DNA from: Acholoe squamosa
Taxonomy: Eukaryota > Annelida > Polychaeta > Phyllodocida > Polynoidae
Assembly: GCA_949317995.1 (NCBI GenBank)
Contig: OX439040.1
Coordinates: 74,993,972-75,057,971, forward strand
Direction of reading: 5' to 3'
DNA: 64,000 nucleotides
The position numbers and the translations under genes were made by a program. The notes under the pieces are model-generated. The model was not told the DNA's origin. It made no database searches and was given only the letters and a program-made list of their open reading frames with translations. Position 1 is the first letter of the stretch. Each line of letters begins with the position of its first letter. Of the stretch, positions 5,758-55,218 are shown in pieces.

Positions 5758-6245
5758 TGTAGACTTGTATTCAGCCTTCAGTGAAAAGTTATTATATGGT
5801 ATATAATAATTATATGGTATATAATAATGTGTAGACTTGTACTAAACCTTCGGTGCAAGGTTAATGATATGGTATATATGTAGACTTGTACTAAGCCTTC
5901 AGTGCAAGGTTAATGATATGGTATATATGTAGACTTGTACTAAGCCTTCAGTGCAAGGTTAATGATATGGTATATATGTAGACTTGTACTAAGCCTTCAG
6001 TGCAAGGTTAATGATATGGTATATATGTAGACTTGTACTAAGCCTTCAGTGCAAGGTTAATGATATGGTATATATGTAGACTTGTACTAAGCCTTCAGTG
6101 CAAGGTTAATGATATGGTATATATGTAGACTTGTACTAAGCCTTCAGTGCAAGGTTAATGATATGGTATATATGTAAGGTTGCACTAAGCCTTCAGTGCA
6201 AGGTATTGTATGGTATATGATATGTGTAGACTTGTACCAAGCCTT
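5758..6245 (+). repeat. 49-bp minisatellite, about 8-9 units
   Basis: Units of 49 bp starting GTAGACTTGTACTAAGCCTT and containing TCAGTGCAAGG and ATGATATGGTATATAT. Central units are almost identical and edge units diverged. It ends about 60 bp upstream of candidate exon 1. A link to promoter function is only positional. Confidence 0.9.
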
Positions 6246-6305
6246 CAATGCAGAGTAATTTGTGTAGCCTTTTACTTACCTACCTTTTTGTACTGTTCTC
6301 TTCAG

Positions 6306-7815: not shown

Positions 7816-8480
7816 AAGGTTCATGAGAATTGGTCTGAGTGAGGGTTATGTTGTTATAGAGAGATTTGTTTTGATTTACATTTATTTGCACAAAATAATG
7901 ATTAGTTATCTTATCACTTAGGATGCTGGAACTGACAATGAAATACGGGATAGGGTTATCGCACGGGGGTGCAATACGGGCTTCCTTGGTTACGCCTGTA
8001 GCTCATAGGTTTAGAAGGGATAATAGCTACAAAAATAGCCCAAAGGAAAGGCCCCAGTATAATGTCATTGTCAGACGTAGGAAAAGGAATTATCTAAAAT
8101 GAAATTCTAGGTTTCCATTTGATTGATGACTTAGTGCTTCACTCTAGAATAGCCTAGAAATCACTAACTTGTACAAATCCCTCCAAAAAGGATAGAAAAT
8201 GCTATGATTCCCAGTTTTAATCATGGCAATAGCTACATCTTATTAAATCTTCAAAGTGATAGTCCCACTTTTTATCATCTTTATATGGAACTTTTTACCT
8301 TAATGGAATACCAAAAGGTCCAATTCATATCCTAACCACACACACTCAGAATGTGGAACTATTCCTGATTGGTCGGCTATTTTACCACGTGACCTCTATC
8401 TGAATTCCTCGGCTGGTCCCCGGCTTGTGTATCAACCCAAGCTTTATAACCCTAGCTTTCGAGAGGCCATATTGACCTAA
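7816..8480. other. No gene seen
   Basis: AT-rich intron-like sequence without supported features. Confidence 0.4.
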
Positions 8481-8734
8481 CCCTTTAAGGGCCGCTGATG
8501 CAGGAGTGCATCATACCCATTGGTCGGTATGATGCACCAATGAACTGCTGGCGAGACTGCTCACCAGCACTTCATTGGAGCATCATGCTGACCCTCTGGG
8601 AGTCTATCAATCCTATCAATCCTGTAGGGTCACCATGATGCATAGATACAGCCCTGGCGAGTTACGCACCAGGGCTGTATCCATGCATGCATCCTGGTTG
8701 GCATGATTCAATAATGCATCATTGGCCCTTAAAG
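8481..8734. mobile_element. NPE copy with compensated palindrome A
   Basis: It runs from CCCTTTAAGGGCCGCTGATG to GGCCCTTAAAGAG, so both outer inverted ends are present. The order of palindromes is B then A, the reverse of the copy at 651. Arm A reads ATACAGCCCTGG and its return arm CCAGGGCTGTAT: both differ from the family (TGCAGCCC / GGGCTGCA) but still match each other. Confidence 0.85.
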
Positions 8735-9100
8735 AGCTAGGCTTGGTATACAGGAAATAAAAGTTCAGGCCCTCCCCCCTCCAGGACCAACTGCAGCCAA
8801 CCTGCCTGGGCTGGAGCCTATGGTGGGGTGCCCCACTTGACATGATAAATATTTACCCTTAGATTAAGCGATTATCTGGGGCAGATTATCCGGTGGGGTC
8901 GTTGGGGGTAGGGATCATATATACCGGTGTGCCCGTGGAGAGTGGTTGAGGGGGCGGAGGCCGGGCATGGCAGTGGTGATGGACTGAATCTGAAGGGTGA
9001 AGTGGGTTGTCTTTGCATTGTCAGGTAATTTTTTCTTTGTATTCTGTCAGATATATCTTTTTTCCCCTCTCCCTCTCTCCTGTCTTTCACGTGCTCGGTA
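8735..9100. other. No gene seen
   Basis: Mixed sequence leading into a CT-rich tract. No supported feature. Confidence 0.35.
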
Positions 9101-20778: not shown

Positions 20779-21244
20779 GCTTAATTACAATAGGGCTATA
20801 TCATTCTGATTACTTAATTACAATAGGGCTATATCATTCTGATTACTTAATTACAATAGGGCTACATCATTCTGATTACTTAATTACAATAGGGCTATAT
20901 CATTCTGATTACTTAATTACAATAGGGCTATATCATTCTGATTACCTAATTACAATAGGGCTATATCATTCTGATTACTTAATTACAATAGGGCTATATC
21001 ATTCTGATTACCTAATTACAATAGGGCTATATCATTCTGATTACTTAATTACAATAGGGCTATATCATTCTGATTACCTAATTACAATAGGGCTATACCA
21101 TTCTGATTACTTAATTACAATAGGGCTATACCATTCTGATTACTTAATTACAATAGGGCTATACCATTCTGATTACTTAATTACAATAGGGCTATACCAT
21201 TCTGATTACCTAATTACAATAGGGCTATATCATTCTGATTACTT
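20779..21244 (+). repeat. 33-bp minisatellite, about 14 units
   Basis: Units of 33 bp starting TTAATTACAATAGGGCTATA and ending TCATTCTGATTAC. A T/C variant (TACTTAATT versus TACCTAATT) alternates over the middle units, and an ATATC to ATACC change marks later units. That suggests duplication of two-unit blocks. Confidence 0.95.
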
Positions 21245-21997
21245 TAATGGATTGAGTATGAGTCAATACTGTTGTTGGTCAAAGAGTAAAAAGGAACCAA
21301 ACAAGATCTCAGGAGCAATTTCCTTCTCAAAATTTGCTAAAGTATTTTTTCAAATGACACTCGAGAGAATTGGCTAAATTATTTTGTCAAATGCCACTTG
21401 AAAGGCACTCTTTAACTGTTTAAGGAAAATTGAATACATATATAACAGATCACCTTTGTAAGAGGAATGAGCATTTCTAGTTATCCTAGCTCGGATTATA
21501 GCAGGGACCTCATAAGGGTAACAATAAGTATTCCCTACTTCGCCAGGACACTACAGAATGATTGAATGAGACACTACAGAATGATTGAATGAAAAAGAAA
21601 TGAATCTCCTAGATAGATCTATTCACCAGATAAGTGCTTCTTTTCTCACATTTTATTCAGATATATGGACTACATAAGCAATTAATCACAGCATTCATGA
21701 TACATGCAAATTGCAATGTCAATTAACATAGCAGAGTCTAAGCATTATTTTCATTAACACATAGGAAAGGGGATATCGACCTGTCAGGATGCACTTGCCC
21801 CATTCTTGGACAGAGGACGTTTTTATTTACCTCTTATGTCATAGACACTAAATGGGGCTTCATATCACCCTCTAATTATGCCCCTAAATGCATTTAAATT
21901 GGGAGAAACTAGGACAGCTGCTCTAGTTTTATTCATCTTCTTTTCTTTTTCAAATATTTTATCTACATAGCCTATATACTTATTCCATTTGTATAGT
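21245..21997. other. No gene seen
   Basis: Contains a short direct repeat (GACACTACAGAATGATTGAA, twice near 21547 and 21570). Otherwise unremarkable. Confidence 0.35.
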
Positions 21998-23560
21998 CAT
22001 GATGTCTGAATGTAGACCTCATGAGTCTACTCACCAAGACTTCTCTACCCACCAAGACTTTCTACTCACCAAGACTTTTCTACTCACCAAGACTTCTCTA
22101 CCCACCAAGACTTCTCTACTCACCAAAACTTCTCTACTCACCAAGACTTCTCTACTCACCAAGACTTTCTACTCACCAAGACTTCTCTAATCACCAAGAC
22201 TTTCTACTCACCAAGACTTCTCTACTCACCAAGACTTCTCTACCCACCAAGACTTTCTACTCACCAAGACTTCTCTACTCACCAAGACTTCTCTACTCAC
22301 CAAGACTTTCTACTCACCAAGACTTTTCTACTCACCAAGACTTCTCTACCCACCAAGACTTCTCTACTCACCAAGACTTCTCTACTCACCAAGACTTTTC
22401 TACTCACCAAGACCTCTCTACTCACCAAGACTTCTCTACCCACCAAGACTTCTCTACTCACCAAGACTTCTCTACTCACCAAGACTTTTCTACCCACCAA
22501 GACTTCTCTACTCACCAAGACTTCTCTACTCACCAAGACTTCTCTACCACCAAGACTTCTCTACTCACCAAGACTTCTCTACTCACCAAGACTTCTCTAC
22601 CCACCAAGACTTCTTTACTCACCAAGACTTCTCTACTCACCAAGACCTCTCTACTCACCAAGACTTCTCTACCCACCAAGACTTCTCTACTCACCAAGAC
22701 TTCTCTACTCACCAAGACTTCTCTACTCACCAAGACTTCTCTACTCACCAAGACTTCTCTACCACCAAGACTTCTCTACTCACCAAGACTTCTCTACTCA
22801 CCAAGACTTCTCTACCCACCAAGACTTCTCTACTCACCAAGACTTCTCTACTCACCAAGACTTCTCTACCCACCAAGACTTCTCTACTCACCAAGACTTC
22901 TCTACTCACCAAGACTTTTCTACCCACCAAGACTTCTCTACTCACCAAGACTTCTCTACTCACCAAGACTTCTCTACCACCAAGACTTCTCTACTCACCA
23001 AGACTTCTCTACTCACCAAGACTTCTCTACTCACCAAGACTTCTCTACTCACCAAGACTTCTCTACTCACCAAGACTTCTCTACTCACCAAGACTTCTCT
23101 ACTCACCAAGACTTCTCTACTCACCAAGACTTCTCTACTCACCAAGACCTCTCTACCCACCAAGACTTCTCTACTCACCAAGACTTCTCTACTCACCAAG
23201 ACCTCTCTACTCACCAAGACTTCTCTACTCACCAAGACTTCTCTACCTACCAAGACTTCTCTACTCACCAAGACTTCTCTACTCACCAAGACTTCTCTAC
23301 CCACCAAGACTTCTCTACTCACCAAGACTTCTCTACCCACCAAGACTTCTCTACCTACCAAGACTTCTCTACTCACCAAGACCTCTCTACTCACCAAGAC
23401 TTCTCTACTCACCAAGACTTCTCTACTCACCAAGACTGCATTCATGCATCATACCAATTGTACAGGATTGATACTCTCCTGAAGGGTGGGCATGATGCAT
23501 GAATGCAGCCCTGGTGGGTAGGCTATAAAGCTCTGCCAAGGTTGCATTCACTCACCATTA
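21998..23560. mobile_element. NPE whose palindrome A has expanded into a minisatellite
   Basis: The left flank CATGATGTCTGAATGTAGAC, then CTCATGAGTCTACTCACCAA, is the left arm and turn of palindrome A. The right flank ACTGCATTCATGCATCATAC is its return arm, followed by the NPE centre (GGATTGATACTCTCCTGAAG) and a second palindrome A. Everything between is the 18-bp tandem array, so the array grew inside the hairpin turn of one NPE. Confidence 0.75.
22024..23436 (+). repeat. 18-bp minisatellite, about 78 units, with higher-order structure
   Basis: The unit is CTCACCAAGACTTCTCTA, with 17-bp and C/T variants (CTACCCACC, CTACCACC). The rare 17-bp variant CTACCAC occurs at 22544, 22759 and 22974, exactly 215 bp apart. 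This shows a 12-unit higher-order repeat. The 493-codon + frame and the shorter - frames across it are artefacts of the repeat and are not genes. Confidence 0.95.
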
Positions 23561-24204
23561 CAACCTTCATCACACCAACTAATATAGGTATAATTCATTA
23601 TAACAGCCCACGACACATAAATGACCAACTGCCTGTTATTAGCCACGGAGAATGATCCAAAGTCACATTTTATCCGTGAAACAGTGCTCGACGCATGCCA
23701 AAAGTGTCACTATTTCATAAAGCGACATAATTTCATGTGACACTGAGGGGAAGGGGGCAAGCTGGTAAATGATGTGAAATTAGGGAGTATGTCCGGCCCT
23801 AATCATCACCCATCATCCCTTCACATTACTCTGTTATAGGAAATAGGACGCCGCCATATTGAAAATAGGTCGTCATATTACTGCGCCCATGTGAGAAAAG
23901 TAGTACTACTACTAGACTGGTGGACTAGTCCTTATTTGAGGCCTATAAATAATTGTTGAGGCATGAAGCAGTAGAGATAGTCAACATAACTGGTTTTCAT
24001 GGATGAATTTCTTCTGGGTTTTCCTCGATTTCAGGGTTTCTTTTTGTTGTTTAGAGCTGGCTACAGAGAACATGTGTTCAGGGGCCTTCATTTAAGAATT
24101 TTGGGCTTGTTAACTTAACTTAATCCCTGGGTTTTGATCTGTGAAAATTATGGGTTGATACTGAATATATCAATATTGTTTCCCAGCTTGATTTATGGGT
24201 TTTC
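23561..24204. other. No gene seen
   Basis: Unique-looking sequence; GTGTCAC words near 23700-23745 form a weak inverted pair. No supported feature. Confidence 0.35.
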
Positions 24205-24345
24205 GAGGTTTATCAGGGATGTAATTCTTCCATAATAATGATTTAAATACAAGGATTTTCAATTTCCAAAAAGCTATATTCCTATACAAAACCCTTACAG
24301 GGCATTTCAGTGATGTTTGTGCTCAAACACATTTGAACATCCCTG
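24205..24345 (+). repeat. F2 dispersed repeat copy
   Basis: TCAGGGATGTAATTCTTCC, CAAGGATTTTCAATTTCC, GCTATATTCCTATACAAAAC and GGCATTTCAGTGATG follow the F2 order. The ends are diverged. Confidence 0.6.
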
Positions 24346-24589
24346 CTCAACCTGCTCTTGAAAATTAAAGGTACAAAACTGCTACCAGTAGGCCTATTTA
24401 CCAAGATCATCCCACGTTATATACTGGTATTAAGGCTGTGTATATATGTGGTCTATATGTGGAGGGTGGTGGATGAAGGTGGAGCTGGGGACGTGGTAGG
24501 AACTAAAAGTGGGACACGACACTCTGTAGGGGAATTAGCCTTAACCATTCACGGTGCGCTTAGGGCCTTAATGTAAATGTCAATTTTTA
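24346..24589. other. No gene seen
   Basis: A short frame from 24358 has no domain support. Confidence 0.3.
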
Positions 24590-24790
24590 TCCTATGATGA
24601 CCATGAATGTCTACTCACAAGGGCTGTATTTAATTGTGAGCAGGCAAGCAGAAAGGGACATCCAATCGAGGCCGCATGGATGATCCTTTTTGCTTGTCTG
24701 CTCACAGATATATTCACCCATCATGCCGACTCTACAGTCTTGATAATCTCCCGAAGGGTCGTCATATATATGTAGCTGGTCCTTAGAGGG
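24590..24790. mobile_element. NPE copy, heavily diverged, ending at TTAA
   Basis: ATGAATGTCTACTCAC and CATCATGCCGACTCTAC are recognisable, then TCCCGAAGGGTCGTC and the right end CCTTAGAGGG with TTAA directly outside (24791-24794). Confidence 0.6.
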
Positions 24791-24889
24791 TTAACTTAAC
24801 AATTGGCGCCCTGAATAATGTGACTACGAACTCGACCCCTTTTATACCCCATATAGTGACAGGGGTGAGACTATGTGAAAGGGTTTGGG

Positions 24890-25215
24890 GTCATGGCGGG
24901 GGGGGGGGTGGAAGGTGGGAGGGAGGGGGGGTGAGATCCAAAAGGGGTTCAGTTTCCCGGAGGTATGTGAACGTATGTAGATGAAAGGAAAGGGTCATTA
25001 TTTGAGAACGTCGTGGGGGGTAGGCTTGGGCCAGGGGAAAAGTGGTTTTCTCACGGGTTGTGTGATAGGAGGGGGGAAAAGTCACCCTAATTTCAATGAA
25101 AAAGTGTGCGTGTGTTACTTTCCACATGTGTATTGTTCAAAATAGGAGAAATCTCACGAAGATGGGGGCTGGGATCTTCTGGTTTATTCATAAAAACCAA
25201 CCCCCTTGACCAATC
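24890..25215. repeat. F3-related G-rich repeat
   Basis: G-runs are followed by GTCACCCTAATTTCAATGAA and AAAGTGTGCGTGTG, then GATGGGGGCTGGGATC. These parallel the inside of the palindromic element at 1691-1963, so this is a diverged relative. Confidence 0.5.
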
Positions 25216-25348
25216 CCCAATCCAGGGACTGGGAGTGGAACAAGGGGATGAGTACAGGACCTGAATGGGGTAAAATAAGCGTATTAATGCTCTGACATAA
25301 GGCAATAAAATAATAATTTAATGCATTGTTCTTCTTTGGCTTTGGTGC

Positions 25349-25505
25349 CAGGGGCGTATCCGCCCGGGGTGTTGACTATGGGGGGGGACACAGCCGGGAA
25401 AATAATTGGTCAAGTCAGAGTTCCGTAGCACATAACAAGACCCATTTTCAGGGGGGAGATGGGATGTCGAGAGGTGCCCCCAGGTAAATCTCTGGATTCG
25501 CCCTA
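25349..25505. mobile_element. Short MITE-like element, GGGGCGTATCC ends
   Basis: The left end CAGGGGCGTATCCGCCC mirrors the right end CTCTGGATTCGCCCT. Between them is G-rich sequence. It resembles the 3254-3400 type but is not closely similar. Non-coding. Confidence 0.5.
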
Positions 25506-25507
25506 GA

Positions 25508-25620
25508 TGTCATGCTTCCCTTGTGGATAACTCACCAGGTCTGGTTTGGTGCATCATGCTGACCATCCAGGGTTGACATGTATTTTTGTCCAACATGATT
25601 TATATATGTAGCACTGGGGC
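25508..25620. mobile_element. Degenerate NPE fragment
   Basis: GTGGATAACTCACCAGGTCT, TTGGTGCATCATGCTGACC, CATCCAGGGTTGACATG and GTAGCACTGGGGC are decayed arms and centre. Confidence 0.5.
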
Positions 25621-26084
25621 AAAGACTACTACTCCCGAGAGCACAATAATACATTTTGGATCACTAATCCTGTCCAAACCCTATTATTTGGAGACTGGGT
25701 GATGAGTGGAGCCGTGTAAGGACATTTATACATGCTGTATACCTCGCCCCCTTTCATGGTTTGGGGCACTGCATATGTAGTACAGACTGACTCATGTACA
25801 TATCCTGTGCTGTACAACGTCCGTAAGGCGATCCACCCCCCCCCCCCCACCCACCCAACCATTTCTCATTACTAGGGATTTATACACGGGGTTTGCACTG
25901 CTCTATGTGGATCTGTGTGTATGTGTGTGTGGGGGGGGGGTAGAGAGGATTGGGTGAGAGTGGTCGTCGAAAGGAATGATCATTTTGACAGGACAGGGAG
26001 GGGTTGGTGGAGTCATTACCCGGATGAAATGTAGCCCCCCTCCCCCCACCTTCTCAAGCCCCCGCCGCCCCCCCCTCCCCATAC
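25621..26084. other. No gene seen; C- and G-runs
   Basis: Poly-C near 25841 and poly-G near 25930 flank a G-rich segment. The frames here are not supported. Confidence 0.35.
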
Positions 26085-26091
26085 ACACACC

Positions 26092-26123
<32 letters not shown>

Positions 26124-26125
26124 CT
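26085..26125 (+). repeat. (CA)n microsatellite
   Basis: Imperfect CA dinucleotide run with interruptions. Confidence 0.9.
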
Positions 26126-26252
26126 CAAGATCAGATCAGGATAAAGTCCCAAACCCTCAGCTATTGGTTTGGTTCACAGGTTAAGACTGATAAATAGAAT
26201 ACAATCCATAATGCCCCCCCTCCCCCCGCCCCCTTGCGGGGCTTCCCTATAC

Positions 26253-26430
26253 AGCCCACTTAAAAGGGTCTATGATTATCTCCTCTTTCCTATCCCTTAG
26301 GATATCGGTCTTGCACCAACTGGTATGTTCGGACACTGACACATTCCTCTGTGAAATTGTGTAATGTAGTTCTCGCCATGAATATGACCTTAGCTGTCGA
26401 AATGGCGTTAAACATCTACTATTACTCACC
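26253..26430 (+). repeat. F6 dispersed repeat, copy 1
   Basis: GCCCACTTAAAAGGGTCTAT, CTCCTCTTTCCTATCCC, ACTGACACATTCCTCTGTG, AATGTAGTTCTCGCCATG and GCTGTCGAAATGGCGTT recur in the same order at 58787-58958 with high similarity, and in part at 54373-54432. A non-coding interspersed repeat of unknown class. Confidence 0.75.
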
Positions 26431-26695
26431 CCCCCCCCCCCACCCGGTCGTCCCATTGTTACAAATGATCATTCCGTTACTATACTGGTACATAGCAGGC
26501 ACACAGTGGGTGCAGGGGGCGTGACCACTGACGGTGTGACAGGGGAGGGGCAGAGTGTATGGTGGTGGTCCATACCACCAGTACATTGTATATACCAGTC
26601 AGTGGGACACTGACCATTACTGGAGCAACATAGGGCTACCTACATGTAGAGTGCAGAGGAGATATAGGACTTTTCCTGCTAGATGACCCTGTGTG
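26431..26695. other. No gene seen; C-run
   Basis: A C-run near 26430, then sequence with no recognised feature. Confidence 0.3.
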
Positions 26696-26772
26696 GAAGC
26701 CTCAACCACGTATAAGCCACACTATGAGTTTGTGTGTAGGCTATAAGCCGCACCTGGGACTTGATAATTGAC
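26696..26772. repeat. F4 'tataagccgc' repeat fragment
   Basis: ACGTATAAGCCACACTATG and GGCTATAAGCCGCACC, with a further GCGGCTTACACG near 26990. Confidence 0.5.
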
Positions 26773-26865
26773 ACTTGAGCAATGGTATACATTACAGACA
26801 GTACAGTGTCAAAACCCCGCCTACAACTTACAAGGTCAGAGCAGCTGTATCCTGAGTTCAGAACT

Positions 26866-26980
26866 CGCCAGGGTTACATTCATACATCATGCCATTCATA
26901 AATGATGCTCCAGCACTTCATTGGTGCATCATGACGACCAATGGGCATGATGCATTCCTGCATTAACGGCCCTGAAGGGG
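26866..26980. mobile_element. Truncated NPE ending at TTAA
   Basis: It starts inside palindrome A (ACTCGCCAGGGTTACATTC) and continues to the B return arm (CAGCACTTCATTGGTGC). It ends GCATTAACGGCCCTGAAGGGG, with TTAA directly outside (26981-26984). Confidence 0.7.
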
Positions 26981-26984
26981 TTAA

Positions 26985-27254
26985 GCTGCGGCTTACACGA
27001 GAGGGTTTATACAGCACAGCCACAGGAGGGATGGAGGAGAACTAGGACCAGGAAGGTTGGCAGATAACCCACACCATGAATGATACAATGTATGTACCAC
27101 TATATATAGACACTCACTGGCTGTGCGATCCAGGTCTAGCCACTAACAGGAGGCCTTTTCACAAGGGCCTACGATCGCACAGGACCCCTACGAATGGTAG
27201 CCAATGCATGTTTAGTCTGGGACTGTGGTACATTGTTTAAGTCTAGTTGCTTTA
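26985..27254. other. No gene seen
   Basis: No supported feature. Confidence 0.3.
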
Positions 27255-27418
27255 GCAGGGATATCCAGTGGGTCCCCACATTTTGAATTCTCTGGTTGAG
27301 GTAAAGCCAACTGATCAGATATACCACAAGGGGTACCCTGCCCCTGGGTAACACCCACTTCCAGGGACATTTGAAGCTGAACTCTATCTTACAAGCTCTA
27401 ATCAGTACATGTCGCGCT
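27255..27418 (+). repeat. F7 dispersed repeat, copy 1
   Basis: CATTTTGAATTCTCTGGTTG, GGGTAACACCCACTTCCAGG and AATCAGTACATGTCGC recur in order at 34015-34165. A partial relative lies near 58225. Non-coding; class unknown. Confidence 0.65.
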
Positions 27419-27732
27419 TCAGTCACGCTTGTAGCCTATAGATTGTTGCGAAATGGCCTGCAGGGTCAAGTACAAGCCTCCAGCTTTAGTCTATAGCGGT
27501 CACTCATGATCTGTGACTTGGAGGTCAACTACCTATACAACCAGACATACAGACAGACACACAGGTATGCAGTATACACCTGTAGGCTGTTCAGTATAGC
27601 TGTTCAGTTGGACAGGTAAGCCTGGTTATTCTTTTGCTGGGTGATTTAGTGAGTATTGGCTGCTTGAGGCCATTTAAGCAGGTAAGGTTATATTCGTGAT
27701 GAGAAAACTACATTGTACATCAATTAGTTAGG
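27419..27732. other. No gene seen
   Basis: Donor-like CAG/GTAAG words occur (27608, 27678) but without a convincing matching acceptor or frame. Confidence 0.3.
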
Positions 27733-27733
27733 G

Positions 27734-27809
<76 letters not shown>
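27733..27809 (+). repeat. (TA)n microsatellite
   Basis: A nearly pure TA dinucleotide run of about 70 bp. Confidence 0.95.
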
Positions 27810-27813
<4 letters not shown>

Positions 27814-27880
27814 CCAGGCGTACAGAGCGGACAGGAAAGATGAGATTGTGTAAGACCTGTTCTCACTTTCATGAGACGGA

Positions 27881-28112
27881 TGCCCTAGTAATGCATGATG
27901 CCCATTGGTAGAAATGATGCATAAATGCAGCCCTGGCGAGTAAGTCGCCAAGGCCACATTCATGCATCATGCCGACCTTTTGGGGAATGATACATCCAAA
28001 GGGTTGGCATGATGCACCGATGAAGTGCTGGCGAGCACACTCGCTAGCACTTCATTGATGCATCATGCCGACCAATGGGCATGATGCACTCCTGCCTCAG
28101 CGACCCATAAAA
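27881..28112. mobile_element. NPE copy, full span
   Basis: It opens TGCCCTAGTAATGCATGATG. Palindrome A (GCAGCCCTGGCGAG / GTCGCCAAGGCCACATTC), the centre, palindrome B (GATGAAGTGCTGGCGAG / CTCGCTAGCACTTCATTG) and the right end GCACTCCTGCCTCAGCGACC are all present. This is A-before-B order. Confidence 0.8.
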
Positions 28113-28309
28113 GCTTTTAAGAGGGTTTAGGAATTTTGGGAGGACAGGGATGTCTTTGCTCCTGGGGTACATACAGTACATGTACCCAGACAGGGGTGAA
28201 AGGGGGCGTGGCAGGGAGGGGTAGAAAGGGGTGTGGCAGAGAACTTAGCCACCTACATCACAACCAACCCATCACCTCTACTAGTAACCTTACTGGTAGG
28301 GTGCAATTA
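28113..28309. other. No gene seen
   Basis: No supported feature. Confidence 0.3.
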
Positions 28310-28445
28310 GCCTGGGGTTTACCATTTCCCCATTAAACATGTGGTTATAAGAATGGTTTCATATGGACAAGATTGTTATATCCTTGGTTTTACCATTTCC
28401 CCTTTAAAAATGTGGTTATAAGAATGGATTCATATGGACAAGATT
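28310..28445 (+). repeat. Tandem duplication, about 66-bp unit
   Basis: GGTTTACCATTTCCCCATTA, TGTGGTTATAAGAATGG and CATATGGACAAGATT occur twice in a row. A third, diverged unit lies at 28700-28770. Confidence 0.75.
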
Positions 28446-30036
28446 CAACTTCTCCAGCGACCTAGTTTGGTGGGCAAACTAAGCCTTCTCCCCTAGGTTA
28501 CCATTTTGACCAAAAATCGACGTATTCATACACCGCCGGTGTTGGACCCACTTTGACCCCAATACTGGGTGCTTGTGGGAACCAGCATTTTCTGGTATCC
28601 ATCTGCCAGCTTGACTCACCAGCAACAAGCTAAGAAAAATAGTACCTCCCAGCATGCCTGTTTACCAGTGACATAACCGTGAGACTACGAGATGGGGCCA
28701 GTGTGGGACAAGATTGTTATATATCCTGGGTTTTACCTTTTCCCTCTTTAAAATTGTGGTTATAAGAATGGTTGCACACATAAAAGATGGTTACGTCCGA
28801 GCAGTAGAGAACCATACCATCGACAGATACTATGTACAAAGTGTATATACTTTTGAGGAGGGCCTCAGCCATAGCTACTCAGTCTATAGCAACTTAGTTA
28901 CATCCTACGAGCTATGGTTCATACCCCGAGGGAAGACACTAGTTAACATTTTAGGCCTTTGGACAACTGGACCGTTAGTCTAGATCTAGTATAAAACAAT
29001 GTATCTTCAAATGTTCTACTCGCCAAATGACAAATATTAATGTACAGCTGAAAGTACTGGCCATTGACCACCTATTTAAAAGTGACATTTCACTACATCG
29101 TGTACATACATATGTTCAAGCTAACTGGTGTACTTTAAACATAGTTAAAAATGTGAATGGGGGCTATCCACAGGTTGTTCCACTTCCCCTATCTAGGTCA
29201 GATCAATGCATCTAAATATACTCATGTGGGTAAGGCCAGAGGTGGGTGGGTGAGTGGTGGTGAGAGAGAGTGGATGTGTGTGAGTGGGTGGGTGGATCAA
29301 AGTTGAGGTACAGGGGCAGGGTGACTAATCACTTACATATGTACACCACATAGTATATTGTATATTGTACTGCCATATATTCCTTTCACTTCAACAAAAT
29401 ATGATAAAAAAAAATAGTCATTTAGCCGATTTTGTGGGTGAGTGGGTGGTTAGAGCAGACATGAGGAACAGATGGGGGATGGGAGAGGGGGGGGGGGTTG
29501 ACTAATCCCTCTTCCATGCAGTATACCACATAGTTAGTACATTTTTGTATATCCAAATTAGGAAATATGGTATGTATGGTACACCTGTGTGCATTATATC
29601 TGTGTGATTTGAAAATAATAATTTCAGGGTCAGACAGCCACATAAAGTACAGGCAGATTTAAATACAAACTGCCTTAAAATACTCAAATTATCATTACTA
29701 GAGCAGTACCATTCCCAAACTGCTTCCTGACCTGTCTAGCCATTTGGGACTTACAGATTAGTACCGCATTGTTCATGTAATGTACATGTATGAATATCTT
29801 CATGAGGTTCATAGTGCAAGAGTATTATCGTATGTATAGTTATACAGCGTGTACTGTATAAGGTTCAGCATGTCATTACAATAGGCTGTACACATGTGAG
29901 CAATCAGACAGACAGAAAGGGCTACCCATGCACATTCCTATGGCCAATCCCTTCTGCTTGGATCCACATATGGCATGCATGTCTAGGACCCATGACCAGC
30001 AGCCCCCCCCCCCCCTCCTCCATGTCCCTATTGTAT
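28446..30036. other. No gene supported (1.6 kb)
   Basis: It contains the diverged third copy of the 66-bp unit at 28700-28770 and an 89-codon frame (28714-28983) that starts in it, with no domain. A G-run lies near 29488. A related pair of GGGTGAGTGGGTGG words lies at 29280 and 29440. Confidence 0.35.
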
Positions 30037-30040
30037 TTAT

Positions 30041-30229
30041 GTGTGTGACTTTTCTGGCCGGCTGACCTTGGTTATCATTAGCTCCGTGATCATCTGCTGG
30101 TGGGTATATATGGGCCTAAAGGATCGACTGGAGCGCCCTGATCAAGGGAACAGTGGGGATAAGGGAACTAATGGCATCCTGTTTGATCAAACGAGCCTAA
30201 CATCTAACTTAACAGAGGCTTTGGCATAG
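30041..30229 (+). other. 62-codon frame with a hydrophobic segment; doubtful
   Basis: The frame encodes a short hydrophobic stretch (LTLVIISSVIICWW) followed by a polar tail rich in Asp, Asn and Gly. There is no upstream splice acceptor or known domain, and the length is near what chance gives. I list it only because the membrane-segment-then-charged-residue pattern is protein-like. Confidence 0.12.
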
Positions 30230-30246
30230 GGGGCTTCTGTAATTGC

Positions 30247-30998
30247 ATTAATAAAATTATGTCTTAACGCTGAATAGTGCAGTGATGCATCATACACAAT
30301 TATGTCTTAATGCTGAATAGTGCAGTGATGCATCATACACAATTATGTCTTAATGCTGAATAGTGCAGTGATGTATCATACACAATTATGTCTTAATGCT
30401 GAATAGTGCAGTGATGCATCATACACAATTATGTCTTAATGCTGAATAGTGCAGTGATGTATCATACACAATTATGTCTTAATGCTGAATAGTGCAGTGA
30501 TGTATCATACACAATTATGTCTTAATGCTGAATAGTGCAGTGATGCATTATACACAATTATGTCTTAATGCTGAATAGTGCAGTGATGCACCATACACAA
30601 TAATGTCTTAATGCTGAATAGTGCAGTGGTGCACCATACACAATTATGTCTTAATGCTGAATAGTGCAGTGGTGCACCATACACAATTATGTCTTAATGC
30701 TGAATAGTGCAGTGATGCATCATACACAATTATGTCTTAACGCTGCATAGTGCAGTGATGCATTATACACAATTATGTCTTAATGCTGAATAGTGCAGTG
30801 ATGCGTCATACACAATTATGTCTTAATGCTGAATAGTGCAGTGATGCGTCATACACAATTATGTCTTAATGCTGAATAGTGCAGTGATGCACCATACACA
30901 ATTATGTCTTAATGCTGAATAGTGCAGTGATGCATCATACACAATTATGTCTTAATGCTAAATAGTGCAGTGATGCACCATACACAATTATGTCTTCA
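30247..30998 (+). repeat. 43-bp minisatellite, about 17 units, NPE-derived
   Basis: Units of 43 bp: TTATGTCTTAATGCTGAATA, then GTGCAGTGATGCATCATAC and ACAA, with scattered CATCAT/TATCAT/CACCAT variants. The CTGAATAGTG and TGATGCATCAT words match NPE left ends (for example at 44517), and NPE scraps follow directly (31001-31115). Confidence 0.95.
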
Positions 30999-31000
30999 TG

Positions 31001-31115
31001 TCAGATGCATAAATGCAGCCATATTGGATCAGATCCAGGGGGAGGGGGGTTATGATTGTGCACCAATGCAATGCTAGCAAGCACTGCATTATGACTACTA
31101 TAGAATATGAATCTA
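31001..31115. mobile_element. NPE remnant beside the 43-bp array
   Basis: CAGATGCATAAATGCAGCC, TGCACCAATGCAATGCTAGC and AAGCACTGCATTATGAC are parts of palindromes A and B. Confidence 0.6.
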
Positions 31116-31297
31116 GAGGATTATCAACATACTTTTGGGGCTGTGGACGCCCAAGCCCCAGTCTTGATATTAATGTCATTTTTCTTTTTCTTTTGCTGTA
31201 ACGCATTTAAATATTTCCTATTGTCAATTGAATAAAATTAAGATTATTTGCGAATTTTCAGAGGTCATTGCATGGTATCTGTGATGGGGGGGGGGGG
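31116..31297. other. No gene seen; G-run
   Basis: Unique-looking sequence ending in a G-run near 31286. Confidence 0.3.
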
Positions 31298-31356
31298 CAA
31301 AATGGCCACCATGTAACAAAATGGCTGCCATATGACAAAATGGCTGCCATGTGTGG
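31298..31356 (+). repeat. Three tandem ACAAAATGGC units
   Basis: CAAAATGGCCACCATGTAA, CAAAATGGCTGCCATATGA and CAAAATGGCTGCCATGTG stand in a row, about 20 bp each. Each carries an AAAATGGC word resembling a YY1 site. Function unproven. Confidence 0.7.
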
Positions 31357-31545
31357 AACAAACAGTGACGGTAGATAGCACAATGATCTATGAGAAACCT
31401 AGCCGTGCACGTCTGTCCCTAGGGACTGAAATCCACCCACCACCCCTCCCACTGCACACAGACCCCATTCCCACGGTTCACGAGGCGGGGGCGGTGTCAC
31501 AGGGTGGTGTGTGTGGGGGGGGGGGGGGTAGGGTTAGGGTTAATA
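31357..31545. other. No gene seen; G-run and two TTAGGG words
   Basis: A G-run near 31517 is followed by TAGGGTTAGGGTTA. Two telomere-type units are too few to indicate a telomeric tract. Confidence 0.3.
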
Positions 31546-31547
31546 AC

Positions 31548-31822
31548 CCTTTGAGGGACACCTGATGTACCCACAGGAGCAGGGTTCAGGATTTAATTTT
31601 CCCTCTCCCTCCCTGACCTGTAGACTAAACATGATGCATTGAGTCTGTCATTTCCACTAGGTTTGCTAAAAGCTTTCAGCTTCAGGAATGTTTCAACCTT
31701 GAGAAGTCGGCATGATGCTTGCATGCACCGGTGCGAGTTTCTCACCAGGGCTACATGCATGATTGCATCATGACTACAAGTGGTGATAACATATTTAGTG
31801 CACAATGCGGCCCCTAAGGACT
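31548..31822. mobile_element. NPE copy with unrelated internal sequence
   Basis: It opens CCCTTTGAGGGACACCTGATG. After about 100 bp of non-matching sequence come AAGTCGGCATGATGC, a degenerate palindrome A (TGCGAGTTTCTCACCAGGGC) and the right end GCGGCCCCTAAGG. Confidence 0.6.
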
Positions 31823-31856
31823 ACTGACGCTGTTGGGTGCTTGTGATGTAGAAGGG

Positions 31857-31957
31857 TTTGACAGTGTAATATTATACATGTACACCCAAATTGACAGTGT
31901 ATTAATATACATGTACACCCAAATTGACAGTGTATTATATACATGTACACCCAAATT
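31857..31957 (+). repeat. 33-bp tandem repeat, three units
   Basis: TTGACAGTGTATTAATATAC and ATGTACACCCAAA form three head-to-tail units. Confidence 0.9.
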
Positions 31958-32035
31958 CCCCACTAGACATTTAATGACCACTAGTGCATTGGTACCCGGA
32001 TTGGTACGCACATGCCCATAGGTACACCGTGCCAA

Positions 32036-32606
32036 CCGACCGGGAGTGTGTATGACCGGGAGTGTGTATGACCGGGAGTGTGTATGACCGGGAGTGTATA
32101 TGACCGGGAGTGTGTATGACCGGGAGTGTGTATGACCGGGAGTGTGTATGACCGGGAGTGTGTATAACCGGGAGTGTGTATGACCGGGAGTGTGTATGAC
32201 CGGGAGTGTGTATGACCGGGAGTGTGTATGACCGGGATTGTGTATGACCGGGAGTGTGTATGACCGGGAGTGTGTATGACCGGGATTGTGTGTATGACCG
32301 GGAGTGTGTATGACCGGGAGTGTGTATGACCGGGAGTGTGTATGACCGGGAGTGTGTATGACCAGGATTGTGTATGACCGGGAGTGTGTATGATCGGGAG
32401 TGTGTATGACCGGGATTGTGTGTATGACCGGGAGTGTGTATGACCGGGAGTGTGTATGACCGGGAGTGTGTATGACCGGGAGTGTGTATGACCGGGATTG
32501 TGTATGACCTGGAGTGTATATGACCGGGAGTGTGTATGACCGGGAGTGTGTATGACCGGGAGTGTATATGACCGGGAGTGTGTATGACCGGGAGTGTGTA
32601 TATGAC
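32036..32606 (+). repeat. 16-bp minisatellite, array 1, NPE-derived
   Basis: Unit TGACCGGGAGTGTGTA, about 36 copies, with G-to-T (GGGATTGTG), A (CCAGGA) and TGTGTG length variants. The unit resembles the NPE centre (GACC...GGGAGTGTATCAACC). The long - strand frames over it are repeat artefacts. Confidence 0.95.
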
Positions 32607-32855
32607 CAGGAATGTATAAAGCCTGTATGACCGATATGATGCATAAATATAGTCCATGAAAGCCCCATGTTGTCCCTAAAGTGTTAAAGTTTTGGGGTGG
32701 AGTGATGTAGAGAAAGTTGACAATCTATCCCACCCACACCCAACACCACTAGCCCTTTTACAGGCATGCCTAAAGGTCGGTATGATGCACCATTTCAGAC
32801 TCTTTAACTCTTTATTTATGCTTCATACCCGACCCTCCAGGACTGTACCAACCCT
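32607..32855 (+). repeat. Non-array half of a ~734-bp duplication, copy 1
   Basis: From CAGGAATGTATAAAGCCTGT through TGTACCAACCCTG this segment matches 33341-33590 almost exactly at an offset of 734 bp. I noticed one substitution (GTTAAAG versus GTTAACG, near 32687). It contains NPE words (GGTCGGTATGATGCACC, CCGACCCTCCAGGACTG). Confidence 0.9.
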
Positions 32856-33340
32856 GACCGGGAGTGTATATGACCGGGAGTGTGTATGACCGGGAGTGTG
32901 TATGACCGGGAGTGTGTATGACCGGGAGTGTGTATGACCGGGAGTGTGTATGACCGGGAGTGTGTATGACCGGGAGTGTGTATGACCGGGAGTGTGTATG
33001 ACCAGGAGTGTGTATGACCGGGATTGTGTATGACCGGGAGTGTGTATGACCGGGAGTGTGTATGACCGGGAGTGTGTATGACCGGGATTGTGTGTATGAC
33101 CGGGAGTGTGTATGACCGGGAGTGTGTATGACCGGGAGTGTGTATGACCGGGAGTGTGTATGACCGGGATTGTGTATGACCGGGAGTGTATATGACCGGG
33201 AGTGTGTATGACCGGGAGTGTGTATGACCAGGAGTGTGTATGACCGGGAGTGTGTATGACCGGGAGTGTATATGACCGGGAGTGTGTATGACCGGGAGTG
33301 TATGACCGGGAGTGTGTATGACCGGGAGTGTGTATATGAC
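32856..33340 (+). repeat. 16-bp minisatellite, array 2
   Basis: About 30 copies of the unit seen at 32036-32606, with the same variant types. It begins directly at the NPE centre (ACCAACCC/TGACCGGGAGTG), which shows where the array joins the element. Confidence 0.95.
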
Positions 33341-33590
33341 CAGGAATGTATAAAGCCTGTATGACCGATATGATGCATAAATATAGTCCATGAAAGCCCC
33401 ATGTTGTCCCTAAAGTGTTAACGTTTTGGGGTGGAGTGATGTAGAGAAAGTTGACAATCTATCCCACCCACACCCAACACCACTAGCCCTTTTACAGGCA
33501 TGCCTAAAGGTCGGTATGATGCACCATTTCAGACTCTTTAACTCTTTATTTATGCTTCATACCCGACCCTCCAGGACTGTACCAACCCTG
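33341..33590 (+). repeat. Non-array half of the ~734-bp duplication, copy 2
   Basis: Near-identical to 32607-32855. After ACCAACCCTG it continues into an intact NPE palindrome instead of another array, so this copy marks the original junction. Confidence 0.9.
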
Positions 33591-33692
33591 TAAGGTCGGT
33601 ATGATGCATGAATGCAGCCCTGGCGAGTTACTCGCCAGGGCTGCATTCATGTATCATGACGACCAATGAGCATTTATGACCTTCAAAGGGTA
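33497..33692. mobile_element. NPE copy with an almost perfect 28-bp palindrome A
   Basis: CATGCCTAAAGGTCGGTATG and a decayed B lead to the centre CCGACCCTCC and then palindrome A at 33601-33657. That is two 28-bp arms around a single T, with one mismatch. The right side has CATGACGACCAATGAGC. This is the cleanest cruciform-forming copy in the window. Confidence 0.85.
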
Positions 33693-33758
33693 ACTAACTA
33701 TAACAATGAATGGTATGACAGCATGGTATGTGTATAGGGTGATGGTTTCCTCCACTCG

Positions 33759-33775
33759 CCACTAGGTGGCAGCAG
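33759..33775 (+). promoter_or_regulatory. CTCF-like motif 1
   Basis: CCACTAGGTGGCAGCAG fits the well-known CTCF core (CCASYAGRKGGCRS). It is repeated 37 bp downstream within a tandem duplication (ATGTAGGACACACA follows both). Occupancy cannot be judged from sequence. Confidence 0.6.
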
Positions 33776-33795
33776 TATGTAGGACACACAACTCA

Positions 33796-33812
33796 CCACT
33801 AGGTGGCAGTAG
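33796..33812 (+). promoter_or_regulatory. CTCF-like motif 2
   Basis: CCACTAGGTGGCAGTAG, second unit of the 37-bp tandem pair, same orientation as the first. Confidence 0.6.
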
Positions 33813-34014
33813 TATGTAGGACACACATTCCTCCTGTGTGTATGGGGTCAGGAGGACCACGCCCCCATGGATCTATGTCTCACTCAGACTACTGTGAATG
33901 TGTGCCCCATGTATAGGCTGGTACAGCATTGAATAAATGTGTTCTGTAATACCGTACTACCTCACATAAATAAGGACCATAAAAGGTGCACCCAGCAAGG
34001 GCTTAGTATGGACG
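33813..34014. other. No gene seen
   Basis: No supported feature. Confidence 0.3.
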
Positions 34015-44510: not shown

Positions 44511-44757
44511 CAAGGTCTGAATAGTGTGTCAATGCATTATGCTCTTTGGTCTTCATGATGTATGAATGCAGCCCTGATAAATGAAACGCCTGGCTTGCAT
44601 TCATGCATCAAGACGACTCTCCAGTGTTCATACGCTCCCAAAGTATGGATCGAACAAGGCATGGCTGCAGCCCCGACCGTTTAGCGTGACTTGGGTTGCT
44701 TTAATGCATCATGATGGTAAATAAGTTATGATTTAAAAGAGTGCCCCTTAAAGAGTT
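44511..44757. mobile_element. NPE copy, diverged
   Basis: Left end CTGAATAGTGTGTCAATGC (the word also seen in the 43-bp minisatellite). Then palindrome A (GCAGCCCTGATAAATG / CCTGGCTTGCATTCATGC), GACTCTCCAGTGTTC, a decayed centre, TAATGCATCATGATGG and the right end CCCCTTAAAGAG. Confidence 0.7.
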
Positions 44758-54874: not shown

Positions 54875-55109
54875 GCAGTCTGCCCATTGGTCGGTGTGAG
54901 GCTTAAATGCATGGAGCAGCTCTGATGAGTAACTCACCAGTGCTGTATTCATGCATCATGCTGACTAAACAGGATTGATACAATCCTGAAGGGTCGTCAT
55001 GATGCACCAATGCAGTGCTGGCGAGTAGAGTGCTGGTGAGTAGACTGCATTGGTGCACCATGACGACAAAGGAACACGGACCTAGAGGCATCTTTTGGTC
55101 CTTAAAGGG
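54875..55109. mobile_element. NPE copy, beta-type right end at TTAA
   Basis: CCCATTGGTCGGTGTGAGGC, palindrome A (GCAGCTCTGATGAG / ACTCACCAGTGCTGTATTC), centre, palindrome B with an internal duplication (AGTGCTGGCGAGTAG then AGTGCTGGTGAGTAG). Then come GACGACAAAGGAACACGG, CTAGAGGCATC and TCCTTAAAGGG. TTAA follows at 55110-55113. Confidence 0.8.
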
Positions 55110-55145
55110 TTAAAGTGAGGCATCATGTCGTCCTTAAAGGGTTAA
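55110..55145 (+). repeat. Tandem duplication of the NPE right tip, TTAA to TTAA
   Basis: TTAAAGTGAGGCATCATGTC and GTCCTTAAAGGG are followed by another TTAAAGTGAGG. A 32-bp unit bounded by TTAA at 55110 and 55142. Confidence 0.65.
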
Positions 55146-55218
55146 AGTGAGGGACAATAGGGACAGAGAGTGTTGACAAAGGAAGGTATGACCCCTCAGT
55201 ATGCACCACCTGTACATG

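Follow-up and report, generated by a model that had tools for sequence, protein, structure and literature searches.

Minisatellites inside a putative piggyBac-type miniature element of Acholoe squamosa, with unit lengths that mostly coincide with the spacings of its internal direct repeats

Do the large minisatellites of a polynoid worm originate from the hairpin-rich repeat that surrounds them? The question is raised by a 64,000-nucleotide stretch of the Acholoe squamosa genome (assembly GCA_949317995.1, contig OX439040.1, positions 74,993,972 to 75,057,971 of the forward strand), referred to here as the window, in which arrays with units of 18, 43 and 16 bp occur together with many copies of a repeat family designated NPE. 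An earlier note on this DNA had proposed that each array arose from a different part of the NPE and that the family seeds tandem repeats, perhaps through slippage or repair at hairpins. The analysis covered the window, which lies on contig 6 (C6:74993972-75057971), and the whole genome (1.48 Gb, 63 contigs). Seeding by the family was supported, both by an NPE-derived array in a random sample that had not been selected for it and by many arrays inside single NPEs across the genome. The preferred reading, to which a probability of about 0.72 is assigned, is that arrays are born inside the NPE via the spacings of its internal direct repeats and then grow in place.

An iterated profile derived from the window copies gave an NPE model of 256 positions. 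The model is almost identical to its reverse complement, and matches were accordingly found on both strands at nearly all loci. It opens with TTAA, CCCTTTAAGGGCC and a small palindrome; hairpin A, a central hairpin and hairpin B come next, and the opening part then returns in mirror image. Allowing up to 8 mismatches in 28 positions, 92 NPE arm matches were found in the window and none in any of the three Markov-shuffled versions, and the profile search yielded 56 merged loci, corresponding to 16.0% of the sequence. The NPE share of a 200-kb random sample (L008-L027) was 1.2%, a comparison that favours the window because the profile was built from its copies. Folded as single-stranded DNA, the copy at 8478-8737 reached -72.1 kcal/mol (z = -10; the shuffles averaged -37.2), and 0 of 200 shuffles were as stable.

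The ends of the element indicated its class. Each consists of TTAA and then CCCTTTAAGG; TTAA was present at the boundary of 24 of the 55 NPE ends in the window (chance 3.3%), with an exact TTAACCC at 10 of the 55, and conservation ended sharply at this point. The consensus TTAACCCTTTAAGG is found at both ends of the nearly symmetric model and fits the CC[C/T]T start of a terminal inverted repeat. A total of 90 matches to PF13843 (piggyBac transposase) were present in the genome, two of which, at C3:84102671 and C8:52428409, were nearly full-length without stops; these frames are possible NPE helpers. Based on the TTAA boundary, the sharp stop in conservation and the piggyBac transposases in the genome, the NPE is read as a non-autonomous piggyBac-type miniature inverted-repeat transposable element (MITE) of approximately 256 bp, its target-site duplication being presumed from the TTAA ends. 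Like a MITE, the 256-bp model is short, non-coding and hairpin-rich. Its likeness to foldback elements is one of architecture only, and the TTAA ends argue for piggyBac. Pfam gave no match in the six window open reading frames tested, which were not aimed at the NPE specifically, and Rfam none in the window at gathering thresholds.

Two words, CATGATGCAT and ATGCATCATG, recur within the NPE and so produce direct repeats at fixed spacings. The best offsets for direct repeats in the consensus were 96/97, 72/71 and 34 bp. Below 90 bp, the longest repeats are those spaced by 34 and 71 bp, which carry 17 and 19 bp respectively, while a spacing of 42 bp carries only 5 bp. The genome was searched with patterns spanning tandem junctions, for which the counts given are whole, the places are the first ones found, and the reversed-pattern controls were 0 in every case. 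The 34-bp junction pattern gave 1472+1522 matches at up to 2 mismatches, and isolated matches of this kind may be NPEs with a shortened hairpin. The 42-bp pattern of the left end gave 147+169 matches; inspection of individual loci showed 42-bp units at six (L005, L032 and L037-L040) and no array at one fetched match, L031. With an open-gap pattern, 390+356 matches were obtained for registers 30-60 and 348+252 for registers 61-90. Exact matches on contigs 1-3, where all places are available, defined 29 junction loci. The register was 34 at 22 of these (p=2e-27 against uniform registers 30-60) and 48, 49 (two), 52, 55, 56 or 58 at the others. Register 71 was seen at four places among the matches listed for contigs 1-4, one of them a run of nine. 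As registers 34 and 71 coincide with direct-repeat spacings, the commonest short registers are those that homology predicts.

These arrays lie inside single NPEs. At all ten loci fetched for their regular runs, the array was positioned between collinear parts of one NPE, and together with L032 and L037 this made 12 of 15 pattern-fetched array loci with model-collinear NPE on both sides; L038, L039 and L040 were less complete. Eight of the ten had a period of 34 according to Tandem Repeats Finder (TRF), with 4.1 to 20.9 copies. At L047 (contig 6, 5.05 Mb), 34- and 15-bp units were mixed in a higher-order pattern that included one inverted unit, and at L048 the whole of hairpin A was repeated approximately 13 times. 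The match within arrays was 87-99%. On the preferred reading, the first tandem duplication would form between two NPE direct repeats through replication slippage or unequal exchange, giving a unit equal in length to their spacing, i.e. 34 bp, 71 bp or, less often, 42 bp and others. With two units present, unequal exchange or slippage between them would grow the array in place to 4-35 copies, and the remainder of the NPE would keep its order around it. Low-homology arrays, such as those of 18 and 16 bp, would be rarer microhomology or turn-centred events. We infer both the molecular step, whether slippage or exchange, and the independent birth of most arrays.

The earlier suggestion of slippage at hairpins points to a different cause, spelled out here as a hairpin in the nascent strand that would stabilise the slipped state and would itself become the unit. 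The folding energy of the NPE copy is in line with this, as are the two turn-centred arrays, of 18 bp in the window and 21 bp at L054, and the composition of the longer units, the 42-bp unit being an alternative hairpin with a direct repeat of 4-5 bp and the 71-bp unit holding all of hairpin A. The prediction that full-hairpin units of 42 bp should outnumber long-homology units of 34 bp, which contain no full hairpin, was rejected, since the opposite was found. Nor does the 16-bp unit match a hairpin arm. Given that the commonest registers have the longest internal direct repeats, hairpin slippage is not the simplest explanation for most arrays; it is possible for the 18-bp array, the 21-bp array of L054 and the 42-bp class, and doubtful as a general cause.

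A single origin was also considered, in which one NPE subfamily gained a duplicated left end once and spread by transposition, so that the arrays were inherited and only their copy number changed. Consistent with this, the commonest 34-bp unit was nearly identical at L041, L042, L044 and L045, and intact-looking piggyBac transposases are available in the genome. The registers found (15, 34, 42, 48, 49, 55, 56, 58 and 71) would nevertheless require several events, as would the different array positions (left end, turn and centre). The junctions differ as well: internal junctions of L044 and L045 have the left-end letter T, where the arm has G, and L049 has the arm letter G, the pattern expected of crossovers on either side of the sole mismatch in the 34-bp repeat. 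The identity of the NPE body was 66.5% between 14 array loci and 63.3% between 33 array-free copies (0.665 vs 0.633; permutation p=0.11), a borderline result for inheritance, and the array loci did not cluster by NPE body. This comparison omitted L038 and L039, discarded L040 and used a manually set L005; orientation was taken from the better-scoring strand, since the NPE is nearly symmetric. The array loci form no clear subfamily, although the exclusion is not a strong one, and their in-place origin is likely, short of proof. Inheritance from one founding duplication is regarded as unlikely, and birth at internal direct repeats is preferred.

Of the three window arrays, the 18-bp array was confirmed as derived from the turn of a palindrome whose arms still flank it. 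TRF reported 78.9 copies at 22026-23437. To the left is an NPE hairpin arm at 21985-22026 (8.9 bits with nhmmer for the flank alone, model 50-82), within which the arm match at 21999-22026 has 7/28 mismatches; the arm match to the right, at 23425-23452, has 3/28. From 23438 the sequence follows NPE model 97-247 (87 bits), and the merged nhmmer match to the remainder of this element, comprising the other arm, the centre and the second hairpin (decayed), extends over 23422-23622 (103 bits). The unit, which corresponds to the turn and one arm, matched the NPE consensus better than shuffles (p=0.004; rerun p=0.010), with its best match in a hairpin with a 2-nucleotide turn (model 166-181). All 16 of 16 letters were shared with an array-free NPE hairpin on contig 10 (L056); the unit is therefore composed of these 16 arm-and-turn letters and an additional GA. 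The separate turn-centred array at L054 (contig 15) has a 21-bp unit in 24.6 copies (p=0.001 against the consensus).

The 43-bp array (30255-31000, 17.3 copies) was traced to the NPE left end by its unit (approximately model 25-67; p=0.005 against shuffles). In addition, a genome search with this array retrieved L005 (E=1.7e-10), in which a 42-bp unit of the same stretch, present in 5.1 copies, runs directly into an NPE. The flanks were less informative about the proposed left-end origin: a profile search of the left flank gave no NPE match, the right flank holds a remnant at 31004-31110 with weak nhmmer matches (3 to 12 bits), and the unit did not resemble this flank (p=0.53). The word CTGAATAGTG has one occurrence elsewhere in the window, at 44517, within another NPE end.

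The 16-bp repeat, reported by TRF as 80 copies at 32038-33335, is in fact two arrays with NPE sequence between them: array a (approximately 32038-32607, 35 parsed units) and array b (32858-33341, 30 parsed units). Array a is followed by an NPE right half, consisting of the centre and the start of the next hairpin (32607-32660, plus strand, model 122-174, 17.5 bits). Array b breaks a second NPE at its centre: the left half lies before the array (32765-32857, model 38-140, 36 bits) and a right half (model 122-174) comes after it, such that model 122-140 is present on both sides. No NPE match was found by profile search in the left flank of array a. The 250 bp after array a recur after array b at 33342-33591, offset by 734 bp, with 248/250 bases identical and one difference at the last base; a genome search with this segment recovered the second copy at 99% identity, and a search with the array flank found no paralog. 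Independent seeding of the two arrays was rejected because of these nearly identical flanks: a recent tandem duplication with an offset of 734 bp (32608-33591) made two copies out of a single array. The duplication junction is at the centre of the next NPE and the breakpoints are at NPE centres; the NPE at 33499-33673 (148 bits) is the array-free, intact partner of the copy interrupted at 32765-32857. The copy probably arose through exchange at the centres of two adjacent NPEs. The 35 and 30 units are in different order between nearly identical flanks; assembly error aside, arrays would seem to turn over more quickly than the sequence around them. The unit itself was not above shuffles, either against the NPE consensus (p=0.40) or against local NPE sequence (p=0.10 to 0.17). 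The proposed derivation from the NPE centre therefore agrees with the location of array b between NPE halves and not with its unit, and the 16-bp array is tied to the NPE by its flanks alone. Further along, at 33754-33827, a 37-bp unit is present twice and contains CACTAGGTGGCAGCAG, which may resemble the CTCF motif.

Thus, two of the three arrays could be assigned by unit to different parts of the NPE. Chance proximity was assessed in the window and the random sample, with arrays masked first for the edge test. If both NPEs and minisatellites were concentrated towards the chromosome ends, they might simply meet there, and the high NPE share of the window fits such a view, as does the lack of significance in the window edge test. 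Array units, however, carry NPE-derived letters: 5 of the 19 named units tested had p<=0.005 (18 bp, 43 bp, 32 bp at 55085, L005 and L006), L005 and L006 having been found by similarity to begin with, and the units above shuffles also include L025 and L054. L025, which came from the random sample and was not chosen for NPE content, has a 73-bp unit in 9.6 copies that spans the whole of hairpin A (score 110, shuffle mean 27). In the unit test, p<=0.01 was reached by 4 of the 24 arrays from the window and 1 of the 68 from the sample. For window and sample combined, 4 of 15 large arrays were NPE-linked where the NPE makes up 4.8% of the sequence (p=0.005), or 3 of 15 by unit similarity alone (p=0.03), pooled figures that are biased upwards by a window picked by a reader who had noticed its arrays. 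Coincidence remains adequate for the 16-bp array. For the 34- and 71-bp classes across the genome it is refuted; it is also at odds with the collinear embedding of arrays in single NPEs, and is very improbable as a general explanation.

Several observations weigh against birth at internal direct repeats. The expectation that NPE flanks would exceed chance was not borne out within the window: an NPE lay at the edge of 2 of 6 large arrays, where chance predicts 1.2 (p=0.35), and of 4 of 27 arrays of all sizes, where it predicts 5.3 (p=0.81); in the sample, 0 of 9 large arrays and 0 of 75 overall did so, and 1 of the 9 large ones was NPE-linked (p=0.10). At least two junction matches were present at 18 of the 29 junction loci, leaving 11 of 29 that depend on a single match, and the loci fetched for inspection were picked for regular runs. 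Spacings of 43, 18 and 16 bp have just 3-5 bp of consensus homology, which explains these units poorly. Finally, an old duplication that was inherited and then homogenised by concerted evolution could look like a set of independent births.

Other arrays were compared with the NPE in the same way. Although L030, a 25-bp array, directly adjoins half an NPE, it was rejected on its unit, which has no NPE match (p=0.91); L055 (19 bp) was likewise rejected (p=0.24), and the 40-bp unit of L002 was borderline against the consensus (p=0.054). Shuffle tests gave no NPE match for the 49-, 33-, 71-, 37- and 31-bp units of the window, including the unrelated arrays at 5830-6252 (49 bp, 8.6 copies, p=0.48) and 20780-21244 (33 bp, 14.1 copies, p=0.29). 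At 55085-55152, a 32-bp unit in 2.1 copies is an NPE end repeated (p=0.001), which may be a small duplication or a pair of elements lying end to end. On contig 10, at 0.77 and 0.86 Mb, the 15-bp arrays L006 and L007 (87 and 44 copies) resemble NPE model 29-43, abut NPEs and look like copies of each other. Beside them lie 10-bp ACCCTACAGG arrays, for which derivation from the NPE by unit was rejected (p=0.33).

The chromosomal position of the junction loci was also distinctive. On contigs 1-3, all 29 were less than 13 Mb from a chromosome end, where 15 Mb at both ends would represent 27% of the length. Intact NPE copies themselves cluster in the outer parts of chromosomes, and of 52 array-free left-end words on the same contigs, 47 were within 15 Mb of an end. 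The median distance was 5.2 Mb for junction loci and 9.1 Mb for array-free words (p=1.6e-4), and the difference persisted within the outer 20 Mb (p=6e-4). This terminal bias would fit arrays that grow by exchange where recombination is frequent. A bolder and rather speculative extension, to which little weight is given, is that the NPE acts as a genome-wide minisatellite generator: its hairpins and repeats together would cause breaks or stalling during meiosis in the terminal chromosome regions, arrays of fixed register would recur and outpace their flanks, and extra left-end units might add transposase binding sites and so assist transposition of the NPE.

The first duplication of a minisatellite is rarely observable, whereas with the NPE there are numerous parallel cases to compare, and other copies still show the unduplicated form. 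Its several registers can be compared with internal homology, and there is a positional gradient along the chromosomes. The relative contributions of homology, hairpins and recombination rate thus become countable within one genome.

None of the ingredients of this process is new, and minisatellites born in transposable elements are already known. Word searches of open-access papers did not return the NPE family, or any single MITE whose own repeats determine the dominant registers, which is weak evidence of novelty. Minisatellites in general accumulate near telomeres (PMC6947457), and their birth in transposable elements from segments between short direct repeats is credited to Haber-Louis and to Jurka and Gentles (per PMC3389668 and PMC6947457). 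Human minisatellites of this kind resemble the NPE arrays in being born within elements from segments flanked by short direct repeats (PMC3389668). In that account known mechanisms cover just 6% of cases, the genome shows no obvious hotspots and those within elements are modest (AluS, LTR12), whereas in the NPE one register dominates and junction loci are at chromosome ends. The Drosophila foldback transposon Tetris, with its TIR-220 repeats, is likewise a DNA transposon rich in inverted repeats whose internal tandem repeats seed satellites; unlike the NPE, it has long terminal inverted repeats with 220-bp repeats and is not a TTAA MITE (PMC4079207). Closer are the coral CMITE elements, which are piggyBac/TTAA MITEs with the CC[C/T]T terminal motif and tandem arrays ascribed to replication slippage; as described there, those arrays consist of full-sized elements, whereas the NPE arrays are parts within one element (PMC2872659). 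The Xenopus piggyBac-type MITE with tandem repeats (Hikosaka and Kawahara 2004, as cited in PMC2872659 and PMC6947457) shares with the NPE the tandem amplification of part of the internal sequence of a TTAA MITE. Set beside that element as it is known from these citations, the NPE presents several registers and positions within one family, coinciding with its internal direct repeats.

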